Assembly: GCF_007475525.1 (NCBI RefSeq)
Contig: NZ_CP037899.1
Coordinates: 1,178,001 to 1,242,000, forward strand
Length of the DNA stretch: 64,000 nucleotides
Origin: Methylacidiphilum kamchatkense Kam1
Lineage (GTDB): Bacteria; Verrucomicrobiota; Verrucomicrobiia; Methylacidiphilales; Methylacidiphilaceae
Direction: 5' to 3'
The position numbers and the translations under genes were made by a program. The notes under the pieces are model-generated. The model was not told where the DNA came from. It made no database searches and saw nothing but the letters and a program-made list of their open reading frames with translations. Below, one piece after another: positions 10,059-14,245 of the stretch. Position 1 is the first letter of the stretch. Every line of letters starts with the position of its first letter.

Positions 10059-11260
10059 ATGGGAATAAAAATTTGCGACATTACACAGTTTTATGCTCCT
10101 GGTGGAGGAGTCAAAAGATATATAGACGAAAAGCAGGATTATATCCGTCAAAAAAAAGAAGATGAGCATTTTCTCATCATTCCAGGAGAAAAAACTTTTT
10201 CTATTCACGACCCCCCTATCCACATATTTAGTATTAAGTCTCCATTAATCAATCAGTTTTCTCAACATAGGATTTTATTGAACCTTACAGAAGTTACCGA
10301 TCTCTTGCATGAGATAAAAGCAGATATTATAGAAGCTGGGGATCCTTATCAATCTTCATGGCTTGTCTCTTGGACTGCAAAAAAACTCAAAGTTCCTGTT
10401 GTTGGCTACTACCATTCTCATTTTCCAGATGCTTATGTTCGAACCTATTTTGGTTGGAAAAATTCTTTTTTAGAAAAGGCTTTTTTTACCTTTTCTCGCT
10501 GGTATGCAGAGGAAATTTACAATCAATTCGACTTTACTTTTGTCCCCACTCTTTCTCTTTTAAATTTACTGCGAAGCTGGGGTATCAAAAACGGAGTCCA
10601 TCTCAGCCTTGGAGTAGATACCAAGACGTTTACTCCTGAGCCACCAAAGAACAACTATCGGTTAAAACTCGGAATCCCAAGAGATGCTTTTCTGTTATTG
10701 TATGTTGGCAGGTTAGCAAAGGAAAAAAACATTGGTTTATTGCTGAAAACATTTTTTTTCTTCAGGATTATTCCTCTAAAAAAGACTATTGGCTATTAAT
10801 TATTGGTGATGGCCCCTTAAGGAATGAGATTCTCAAAGCGATAAAAGCCTCTAATAGAATCTGTTGGATTACAAGAGTAGATTCGAAAAAAGAACTTGCC
10901 GATTATTATCGGTCTGCAGATCTTTTCATTCATCCTGGAATCGTTGAGACTTTTGGATTAGTGACCATCGAAAGCCAAGCTTGTGGCTGTCCAGTAGTGG
11001 GATTCCGTGGAACGCATATGGAGGATTTAGTCGAAGAAGGATTCAGTGAGTACTGGGCAGATAGAAAAGATTTTCGTTCCTTAGCTGAAGCTGTAGAAAA
11101 AATGCGAACATTAGATTTAAGAACAATCGGGAAAAACCTTGCGTTGAATGTTCATCAAAAATACAGCTGGAAAAGATCATTTGAGAAACTCTGGTATTAC
11201 TATTATGAAGCTATTTCGAATTCTTTCATACAGAAAAGCGCTCTTAAATATGCTAGCTAA
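10059..11260 (+). CDS. Group 1 (GT4) glycosyltransferase, frameshifted
   Basis: The first reading frame gives 246 residues with a GT4 N-domain (KICDITQFYAPGGGVKRYID start, GYYHSHFPD, LSLGVDTKTF, LLLYVGRLAKEKN). Reading then shifts at a T8 tract (10752-10759) into a frame that supplies the family C-domain: IIGDGPLR, the SADLFIHPG strand and the donor-binding GIVETFGLVTIESQACG. One extra T joins both frames into about 400 residues, the normal family size. The N-terminal pattern (PGGGVKRY) resembles enzymes that glycosylate lipids or teichuronic-type polymers, but the substrate is unknown. It is either a base-calling error or a recent disabling deletion. Confidence 0.75.
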
Positions 11261-11444: not shown

Positions 11445-12212
11445 TCATTTTTCAATCTTTTGAAAAGCAACTCCATAATTTTGGATTTCCGATTTGCTAA
11501 ATATGAATCCCAATAGAAATCCCACTAGACCACCCGCTACAACATCTGAAAAATAATGTCTCCCTAATGCCATTCTGGACCAACAAACTAAAAGGGCCAA
11601 AAAAACCAGAAAATATCCTAACTTAGGCATTTGTCCTAAAAAACTAGCTGCTGTTGCCATGGAAGTTGCTGCATGTCCAGAAGGAAATCCATGGAACATG
11701 GTCAACCACTGGATGCCATAAAAGCCATCAACTAGAGAACCATTTGGATGGATTCTTTGAAAACTAACAATAGGCAAAGGGATATATCCTAATTCTTGTA
11801 TGGCTTCGGTTGCACTTGCCGAAGGTCGGGCGCGTCCTAAGATATTTCTTCCTAAATCAACCAATGCTCCAGCTATAAGGGCCGAAAAAAAACATCCAAT
11901 GGCTACTTCTTTCAATTTCTCTTTTTTAAATAAAATTCCTAAAAAATAGATGCTCACGCAAAGAGGAATTGTTCCTTGAGGAAAGTCACCCCAATAACTT
12001 ATTTTTTCAGCAAAAGTGTGAAAAAGAGAATCTCCTTTTATTATAAAAAAACTGTAAAATAGAAAATCAAGCTGAAATGCTAGAATAACACTTAAAAGCC
12101 AGACTAATGGAAAACCAAATTTTATTGTTGGTGGTAGATTTTTAAGAGCTTCAAAAACAGCTAAACATTTCTTTTTTGAAAGTTGATAAAACCGAAACCA
12201 TTCATTTTTCAT
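11445..12212 (-). CDS. PAP2-family membrane phosphatase
   Basis: A 255-residue integral membrane protein with about six hydrophobic segments and the three PAP2 signature motifs: KX6RP-like GRNILGRARP, PSGH in FPSGHAATS (catalytic His), and SRMALGRHYFSDV, with the second His and the Asp. The family removes phosphate from lipid phosphates such as phosphatidic acid or undecaprenyl pyrophosphate at the outer face of the inner membrane. Its start codon overlaps the stop of the upstream cysteine-desulfurase-like gene by 4 bases, so the two are translationally coupled. The precise substrate cannot be read from sequence. Confidence 0.85.
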   Translation of the reverse strand: MKNEWFRFYQLSKKKCLAVFEALKNLPPTIKFGFPLVWLLSVILAFQLDFLFYSFFIIKGDSLFHTFAEKISYWGDFPQGTIPLCVSIYFLGILFKKEKLKEVAIGCFFSALIAGALVDLGRNILGRARPSASATEAIQELGYIPLPIVSFQRIHPNGSLVDGFYGIQWLTMFHGFPSGHAATSMATAASFLGQMPKLGYFLVFLALLVCWSRMALGRHYFSDVVAGGLVGFLLGFIFSKSEIQNYGVAFQKIEK

Positions 12213-13411
12213 TCGCTACTCTTTTTAGAAAGAAATTTTTTCCAACCAATAGACATCTCTCTGAGTTTGGTAACCACTCCGATATAAATATCAAGAAATC
12301 TTTCGATTTCTTCTTTGGTTGTAGTAATTCCCAAACTGATTCTTACACTGGACATAGCCTTTTGGTACTCCAACCCCACAGCTTTAAATACATGGGAAAT
12401 TCTCAAATTTTTTTGTACACAACTAGGCCCGCTTGAAAGCAAAACTCCTTTCATATCACAACTTAATACCTGTGCTTCTCCTCCAATAAATTCGGGACTT
12501 ATATTCAAATTCTGGATGGAACGGTTTGGACCAAGTTCTGGACCGTTGAGAGATACCAATGGGATGCTAGTAGAAATTCTTTCCCAGATCATTTTTTGAA
12601 AATAACCAATTTTTTCTATTTTTTCTTTAAAAATATTTGTCGTAATTTCAGCTGCTTTAGCAGCAGCCACAATGGAAGCCATATTTTCTGTTCCTCCCCA
12701 TAACCCTAACTCTCTATTGAGCCCTGGAATAATCGGTTCTATTTCTATTCCTTGTCTGATATAAAGTACCCCAATTCCTTTGGGCCCGTTGAATTGATTA
12801 GGATTAAGAGCCAAAAGCGAAATAGGGATTTTTTTTAAGTCAATGGGAATCCAGCCTCCAGCATAAGAACCATCGCAAAATAAAGCTATACTGTTTTTTT
12901 CACAAATTTCAGCAGCTTCCTTTATCTTTTGAATGGTTCCTATTTCAGGATTAACCCATTGAAGACAGCAAAGGATGGTTTGTGGAGTTGATAGCTCTTC
13001 GATTGCTTTGGGGTCAATCATTCCTTCCTGATTTACTGGCAAAAAGGTAAGTTGGGCACCCTCCCTTTTTAGCTTATCTAAAAGCAACAAAATAGGTCTT
13101 TGTTCGATAGGGCTTGTCAGAATATGTTTGCCTTTGAGCGAATTTTTTCTCCAAAACCCTTCAATTCCAAGGATAATCGCTTCCCATATGCCACCAGTAA
13201 ATACGAGTTCATTGGGAGAACATCCAATAAAAGAACTAAAAGACTCTAAAGATGATTCTAAGGTCTTTTTTGATTGAATCCCCAGTTGATGGATACTGGT
13301 GGGGGAAAAAGGTTCGAGGGAATAGTGATAGAAAAGTTCTAGAGCCTCTTTAAAAACAGGAGAAACAGATTGGTGATCCAAAAAAATTAGTTTGTCTATA
13401 GAACGCTCCAT
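12209..13411 (-). CDS. Cysteine desulfurase-like protein lacking the PLP lysine
   Basis: The 400-residue protein aligns end to end with IscS/NifS (class V aminotransferase fold). Conserved are the start LDHQSVSP, the Asp that touches the PLP ring (FCDGSY), VNPEIGT, the GPKGIG block, the mobile-loop Cys (SSGPSC) and VRISLG. The Schiff-base His-Lys before GPKG is replaced by Asn-Gln (NPNQFNGPKG), the catalytic His of TEH is Gln (SPIEQRP), and the His of the GGGHE region is Arg. It therefore probably cannot bind PLP covalently or act as a desulfurase. It sits between a DUF4013-like membrane protein and PAP2 in one operon. A scaffold or regulatory role is inference. Confidence 0.85.
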   Translation of the reverse strand: MERSIDKLIFLDHQSVSPVFKEALELFYHYSLEPFSPTSIHQLGIQSKKTLESSLESFSSFIGCSPNELVFTGGIWEAIILGIEGFWRKNSLKGKHILTSPIEQRPILLLLDKLKREGAQLTFLPVNQEGMIDPKAIEELSTPQTILCCLQWVNPEIGTIQKIKEAAEICEKNSIALFCDGSYAGGWIPIDLKKIPISLLALNPNQFNGPKGIGVLYIRQGIEIEPIIPGLNRELGLWGGTENMASIVAAAKAAEITTNIFKEKIEKIGYFQKMIWERISTSIPLVSLNGPELGPNRSIQNLNISPEFIGGEAQVLSCDMKGVLLSSGPSCVQKNLRISHVFKAVGLEYQKAMSSVRISLGITTTKEEIERFLDIYIGVVTKLREMSIGWKKFLSKKSSE

Positions 13412-13447: not shown

Positions 13448-14245
13448 TCAACGTTGTGAGCTGTCTAAGGTATATAAAGAAGATTTATGCTTTTTTACAG
13501 TTTTTGTATAAATAGGGCCAAACCAAGTATCGACCAAGCACAGACCAAAAAAAGCACCAAAAGGGATGGTATAATAAAAGGCCATTGTCAGCGAATTAAT
13601 GCCTAAAAGAAATGCTGAGGCAATCAAGTAATCAGTTTTTGCAAGGGCAAAAATCCTAAAGTTTTCTGGAAAATTTAAAGCGCAATCAAAAACATTTACC
13701 CCGTCAAGCCACCGGCAACAAGCTACAGCACAAAAAGGAATAACAAACCATAGGATTGGGGGAATAAAAAGGGATAAAAGGCTAGAAGGCAACTCTAAAA
13801 GCTGGATAAAAATATAATAAACAATCCCAATCCAAAGAATAGCAGGGAGGATAAGAGTTGTCAAAGCAATCGTCAGTTTGGCGGCTCCTTCCCTAGCATA
13901 ATTCCATAACAAAGAGAGTTTCCATTCTGGTAGTTGATTTAACTTACCGGTTTTAGCTCTTCGAAGAACTTCAAAAGTAAAGCCAAGAGGAAACCAGAAA
14001 GTGCATACATTAATGATGAGAAGACCTAAAAAAGTGCTAGGTAGTCTTTCGGTACTGTAAGAAGAGCTTATTTTAGGAATTAACGCTAAAAGGAAAGGAT
14101 TAATGAGAAGAAATCCTCCGATCAAAACCTTCATCCACCACCATGGATCAGAAAAGATTTGAGAGAAGCCCTTTTTAATATCCAGAAAAAAGCTCGACTT
14201 TTCTATTTCAGGAGTATCAGAAGTCTGAAAAGCTTCTTCATGCAT
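13448..14245 (-). CDS. DUF4013-like integral membrane protein
   Basis: A 265-residue protein with a short cytoplasmic N-terminus, then a motif resembling DUF4013 proteins (FSDPWWWMKVLIGGFLLINPF) and roughly five to six hydrophobic segments up to residue 250. No catalytic residues are apparent and the function of the family is unknown. It is the first gene of a probable three-gene unit with the desulfurase-like gene and PAP2 (gaps of 36 and -4 bases). Confidence 0.6.
   Translation of the reverse strand: MHEEAFQTSDTPEIEKSSFFLDIKKGFSQIFSDPWWWMKVLIGGFLLINPFLLALIPKISSSYSTERLPSTFLGLLIINVCTFWFPLGFTFEVLRRAKTGKLNQLPEWKLSLLWNYAREGAAKLTIALTTLILPAILWIGIVYYIFIQLLELPSSLLSLFIPPILWFVIPFCAVACCRWLDGVNVFDCALNFPENFRIFALAKTDYLIASAFLLGINSLTMAFYYTIPFGAFFGLCLVDTWFGPIYTKTVKKHKSSLYTLDSSQR

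Follow-up and report, generated by a model that had tools for sequence, protein, structure and literature searches.

Gene organization of the locus

The window, by which we mean the whole 64,000-nucleotide stretch of the Methylacidiphilum kamchatkense Kam1 genome analyzed here (NZ_CP037899.1, positions 1,178,001 to 1,242,000), contains a gene for a homologue of the cysteine desulfurases IscS and NifS, set between a membrane-protein gene and a PAP2-family phosphatase gene (Table 1). The reading frame starts with ATG and contains no internal stop codon. An in-frame overlap with the phosphatase gene and a DUF4013-like membrane protein as the other neighbor had been described in the original prediction. 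The overlap is real, but it is a 4-bp ATGA start/stop overlap (12209-12212) at which the two genes are read in different frames. The membrane-protein gene does adjoin: it lies on the same strand, 36 bp away on the upstream side, but NCBIfam and Pfam profile searches with its product gave no match. An ATGA start/stop overlap is the usual sign of co-transcription, which is therefore suggested for the IscS homologue and the phosphatase. The order membrane protein, IscS homologue, PAP2 phosphatase is kept in the genus of the window (g1) and in the sister genus g3, which we take to be Methylacidimicrobium, and part of it, the membrane-protein gene, is kept in a further genus (g2). These neighbors do not suggest sulfur metabolism. 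Elsewhere in the window, a glycosyltransferase gene on the forward strand (10059-11260) is divided by a frameshift within a run of T residues, with 8 T here and 9 T in G004/L207; a pseudogene, a tract subject to phase variation, and an error in the sequence are all possible readings.

Table 1 Features of the locus. Positions are those of the window; residue numbers at active-site positions follow E. coli IscS, except Cys331.
Feature	Position	Strand	Evidence
Pseudo-cysteine desulfurase gene, IscS/NifS fold, 400 aa	12209..13411	-	ORF, NCBIfam, Pfam, PDB, AlphaFold2/Foldseek
PAP2-family phosphatase gene, downstream, 4-bp ATGA overlap	11445..12212	-	ORF list, Pfam, synteny
Membrane-protein gene, 36 bp upstream, same strand	13448..14245	-	ORF list, synteny
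Gln206 codon, site of the PLP Schiff-base lysine K206	12794..12796	-	Alignment
Cys331 codon, site of the catalytic loop Cys328, retained	12419..12421	-	Alignment
Gln104 codon, site of the catalytic His104	13100..13102	-	Alignment
Asp180 (retained) to Tyr183 (canonical Gln), PLP pyridine contacts	12863..12874	-	Alignment
Trp76 codon, site of the PLP-phosphate-binding Thr76	13184..13186	-	Alignment

Family and predicted fold

The NCBIfam profile TIGR03402 (NifS) matched residues 9-387 of the protein with 277.8 bits, the Pfam profile Aminotran_5 (PF00266), of the fold type I aminotransferase-V family, spanned residues 9-372, and IscS chains in the PDB matched with E-values down to 1e-67. The full-length alignment to IscS that had been predicted is thus borne out by all three. 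The scores fell below the NCBIfam equivalog cut-offs, at 277.8 versus 530.75 bits for TIGR03402 and 232.9 versus 643.2 for IscS. An AlphaFold2 model (pLDDT 89.4, pTM 0.89) gave human NFS1, Archaeoglobus fulgidus IscS, and E. coli IscS as its top Foldseek matches, with TM-scores of approximately 0.87-0.92 by query length. A spurious or chance ORF is ruled out by the full-length homology, together with the orthologues and selection described below.

Substitutions in the active-site pocket

Pocket residues were read from an alignment in the numbering of E. coli IscS, the sequence of which was taken from the MG1655 record. At positions 76/104/155/180/183/203/205/206/328/354, E. coli IscS has THNDQSHKCR versus WQPDYNNQCR in the window protein, which corresponds to the changes T76W, H104Q, N155P, Q183Y, S203N, H205N, and K206Q. 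D180, the loop cysteine (C331, equivalent to C328, in the segment SSGPSC), and R354, which binds the substrate carboxylate, are retained. In place of the lysine motif HK-x-x-G/A-P-K-G, the protein has NQFNGPKG, and Gln is found at the lysine site in 5/5 genus genomes; Gln and Tyr stand at the sites of His104 and Gln183, the residues at the PLP ring. The alignment agrees with the original prediction that HK before GPKG has become NQ, that the His of the TEH motif has become Gln (TEH to IEQ, that is, H104Q), and that the Asp under PLP and the loop Cys are kept. T76W, N155P, Q183Y, and S203N are changes absent from that account. The account also counted the Arg in the GGGHE stretch as a lost catalytic His, which does not hold: intact paralogues in the same genome carry Gln there (GGNQE and GGSQE), so the Arg is no evidence of lost catalysis.

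Canonical IscS/NifS proteins (EcIscS and the paralogues L002-L004 of the same genome) resemble the window protein in fold, full-length alignment, D180, and the loop Cys, but have K206, H205, H104, Q183, N155, and Thr or Ser at 76, none of which is found in the window protein. The K206A and H104Q mutants of E. coli IscS are each without desulfurase activity (PMC9978102), and the latter carries the same change as the window protein. We infer that the window protein is without PLP and without desulfurase activity. The cofactor-free state is not certain, because E. coli IscS K206A still binds some PLP and forms the external aldimine (PMC9978102).

Conservation, selection, and paralogues

Orthologues were found in 4/4 other genomes of the genus, and all keep W76, Q104, P155, Y183, N203, N205, and Q206, as well as the loop Cys. 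The same substitutions are therefore present in all five genus genomes, and a search for an orthologue with a normal HK, which would have spoken against the prediction, found none in the lineage of the window gene. The gene is intact in every genus genome and, in the sister genus, in every genome except the least complete one. Its dN/dS was 0.14-0.15 for close pairs and approximately 0.05-0.10 for distant pairs, the latter being rough values near synonymous saturation, whereas that of the PAP2 gene was higher (0.20-0.25). The window gene is under purifying selection. The genus-wide changes, the dN/dS values of 0.05-0.15, and the conserved gene order support the predicted conserved pseudoenzyme over decay, and the same dN/dS values rule out recent decay.

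The genome is a single contig of 2,202,032 bp and encodes four intact desulfurases with the HK motif, three of the IscS/NifS type and one SufS. The proposed search for a second intact IscS or SufS thus yielded four, which rules out the window protein as the sole desulfurase of the genome. One paralogue (L002) had seemed to be disrupted by an internal TAG, but this TAG lies upstream of the real start codon and the gene is therefore not disrupted. The window protein shares 31-34% identity with the intact paralogues and has no genomic linkage to them. The genome encodes no isc-type IscU; its sole NifU_N protein is SufU-like and lies beside SufS. No IscU is encoded near the window gene, and the window protein accordingly lacks an iscU pairing at the level of both gene and genome. 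One TusA and one full-length Mrp are encoded, neither close to the gene.

A lineage of IscS homologues lacking the Schiff-base lysine

The nearest homologues elsewhere in the order are all without the lysine. Most have SPHRFYGPKG, with Arg for Lys (hereafter HR proteins), whereas the orthologues of the sister genus (L010-L014 and L016) have HFRGCGGPVG in its place, with Ser at position 104 and the loop Cys kept. A degenerate DNA pattern for HRF[YF]GPKG matched at least 119 contig stretches; nearly all of the matches listed fall in real IscS homologues, and the lineage has more than 100 members. The carriers among the matches listed are mostly Verrucomicrobiota, with others labeled Nitrospirae, Deltaproteobacteria, Ca. 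Acididesulfobacter, Hydrothermarchaeota, and Pyrohabitans; the labels outside Verrucomicrobiota are record titles of metagenome bins, in which contamination is possible. In a class-wide draw, the exact motif was present in 33/286 genomes and 21/137 genera, and in a phylum-wide draw the pattern was found in 0/387 genomes. Because the pattern search recovers known carriers, the lineage is patchy, and the families that carry it were apparently not sampled in the phylum-wide draw.

Residues were tabulated for 141 sequences without K206, mostly picked for HR by the pattern, and for 26 with K206. Of the 141 sequences, 7 have R354 and 3 have Q183, two positions not selected by the pattern, whereas D180 is present in 140 and the loop Cys is kept in 139 of the 140 that are readable there; R354 and C328 are both present in 26/26 sequences with K206. 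These tallies are counts and not a test, because related sequences are not independent. The window protein has the lysine replaced and the loop Cys kept, like the lysine-less IscS of A. fulgidus. One HR homologue (L133) has Asn aligned with the loop Cys and Ala with His104; this protein may be entirely dead, or its alignment may be wrong.

Phylogenetic position of the window protein

The window protein grouped with lysine-less proteins of Methylacidiphilaceae and relatives in a clade of eight rows (support 100/99), on a very long branch of 1.04 changes per site. When the active-site columns were removed, the HR proteins still fell on one side of a branch, with weak support (78/50). Grouping of A. 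fulgidus IscS with the HR proteins was rejected with these columns removed (AU p 0.008). A single origin of all lysine-less IscS proteins is ruled out for A. fulgidus by this result, which indicates that the lysine was lost at least twice. In the line of the window protein the loss is old and long predates the genus. The original prediction is supported as to a conserved pseudoenzyme but missed this early loss in a large lineage tied to iscU.

Genomic context of the HR proteins

Among the matches listed, 108 HR loci were inspected for genes within 2 kb on the same strand; IscU was encoded at 75/108, Rrf2/IscR at 47/108, Mrp at 34/108, and TusA at 22/108. The commonest layout among them was iscR-iscU-iscS*-mrp, where iscS* is the lysine-less gene, and an iscS*-iscU-tusA layout was seen in acid-mine and sulfur bacteria. 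The neighboring IscU proteins retain all cluster ligands (C37, D39, C63, and C106) in 47/47 cases. HR proteins from iscU operons have a long conserved C-terminal tail, 'LRxMSPxW...', comparable to 'SPLWEMYKQ' of E. coli, and by analogy with the known E. coli complex this tail probably faces IscU; it is shortened in the window protein. Because the window genome lacks an isc-type IscU, this context is not directly transferable to the window protein.

Two further arrangements were observed. Hydrothermal archaea (L039, L043, L053, L062, L105, and L117) have the tandem iscS*(HR)-tusA-iscS(HK)-iscU, in which an inactive and an active IscS form a natural pair. In G013, the HR-type IscS gene has a LarE-like sulfur-transferase gene (L203:11562-12359), named from its first residues only, approximately 1.4 kb away.

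Discussion

The closest known parallel comes from archaea. The IscS of A. fulgidus lacks desulfurase activity owing to an Asp at the site of the Lys, and a Cys of this protein ligates the [2Fe-2S] cluster on IscU (PMC7585200). A. fulgidus IscS2 (4eb5/4eb7/4hvk) resembles the window protein in having the IscS fold (TM-score 0.87-0.88 by query, 34-35% identity), in the loss of the PLP lysine and Q183, and in the retained loop Cys. It differs in that the loss was independent, with D199 and not Arg or Gln at the lysine site, and in that it partners its own IscU, whereas no isc-type IscU is encoded in the window genome. For Methanosarcina acetivorans IscS1, absence of the catalytic lysine is likewise reported, and a mode of action like that of A. 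fulgidus IscS has been suggested (PMC7585200); unlike the window protein, IscS1 is archaeal and lies in an iscSU cluster.

We put at about even the chance that the window protein acts without PLP as a thiol platform in the handling of sulfur or Fe-S, with only candidate partners at present. Its ancestor would have been an IscS with Arg for the lysine (K206R), with a normal IscU scaffold encoded alongside it. Such a protein would not have cleaved cysteine. Its role, similar to that of A. fulgidus IscS, would have been to present the flexible-loop Cys to the scaffold, so as to ligate the nascent [2Fe-2S] cluster, to accept persulfide, or both. The sulfur might have been supplied as sulfide or as persulfide produced by other enzymes; the relatives have TusA genes next to them and, in archaea, an HK-type IscS. 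The gene would then have been kept in Methylacidiphilaceae without its iscU partner and without the C-terminal tail presumed to face IscU, and in Methylacidiphilum the pocket would have eroded further (T76W, H104Q, N155P, Q183Y, S203N, H205N, and R206Q). As the dimeric fold and the loop Cys are under selection, the protein most likely still provides a thiol, as platform or relay, in sulfur or Fe-S handling, for which SufU, TusA, or an intact IscS/NifS paralogue in a heterodimer are candidate partners. R354 is kept in the genus but has been lost by most HR relatives, and its presence is somewhat harder to reconcile with a pure pseudoenzyme.

A heterodimer could also have another purpose, in that the window protein might be an inactive subunit that regulates or stabilizes an intact IscS/NifS paralogue, as LCB1 is the inactive partner subunit in serine palmitoyltransferase. 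Three intact NifS/IscS-type paralogues are available in the genome, and in archaeal relatives HR-IscS and HK-IscS genes lie together in a single tandem array; we nevertheless regard this as unlikely, given the low identity to the paralogues, the lack of linkage to them, and a loop Cys for which a purely structural subunit would have no need. Less probable still is a new enzyme whose remodeled pocket accommodates PMP, a different ligand, or a metal for chemistry that dispenses with the Schiff-base lysine, in the manner of the PMP-dependent dehydratases, which carry His for Lys. The pocket changes are specific and conserved in the genus rather than random, R354 and D180 are kept, and purifying selection is strong, but the phosphate site would be perturbed by T76W and H205N, neither a substrate nor a metabolic neighbor points to a reaction, and the very different pocket of the sister genus (FRG, S104) argues against shared new chemistry.

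Two other readings have very little in their favor. One is a residual gene that is being lost and persists only through polar effects in the PAP2 transcription unit; the very long branch, the change of most catalytic residues, and the translational coupling through the 4-bp overlap would fit, but a dN/dS lower than that of PAP2 itself and a frame that is intact in every genome of the genus and, apart from the least complete one, of the sister genus make it highly improbable. The other, a low-activity cysteine desulfurase with non-covalent PLP, could draw on the retained D180 and R354 and on the PLP and external aldimine seen with E. coli K206A (PMC9978102). It is equally hard to credit, because K206A and H104Q each abolish the E. 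coli activity, and the window protein differs at both of these sites as well as at five other pocket positions.

In textbook ISC assembly, the first step is the taking of sulfur from cysteine by IscS. Returning to the thiol platform, we propose, more tentatively than for the window protein itself, that an ancient class of ISC operons may build Fe-S clusters with an IscS that is desulfurase-inactive by design and contributes only a thiol, the sulfur arriving as sulfide or as outside persulfide, and that the Methylacidiphilum protein may be an IscU-free descendant with a new thiol-based role. If so, the oddity of A. fulgidus becomes a widespread design, and the roles of IscS as sulfur donor and as cysteine ligand or acceptor are separated in a form testable in bacteria. 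The principle of a lysine-less IscS is already known from one archaeon. In the open-access literature, where an earlier mention is possible, we found no description of a wide bacterial lineage with operon evidence and an IscU-free methanotroph derivative, nor any account of a desulfurase with Arg for the lysine in Verrucomicrobia. Automatic annotation as 'cysteine desulfurase' is probably wrong for many proteins of Verrucomicrobiota and other groups.

The HR loci also bear comparison with the minimal Fe-S system MisS/MisU, in which MisS is described as a cysteine desulfurase (PMC12442378, PMC10653786). Both pair a NifS/IscS-like protein with an IscU-like scaffold, and the HR loci add iscR and mrp. 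As far as that description goes, MisS is set apart as a desulfurase, whereas the HR proteins are without the lysine.
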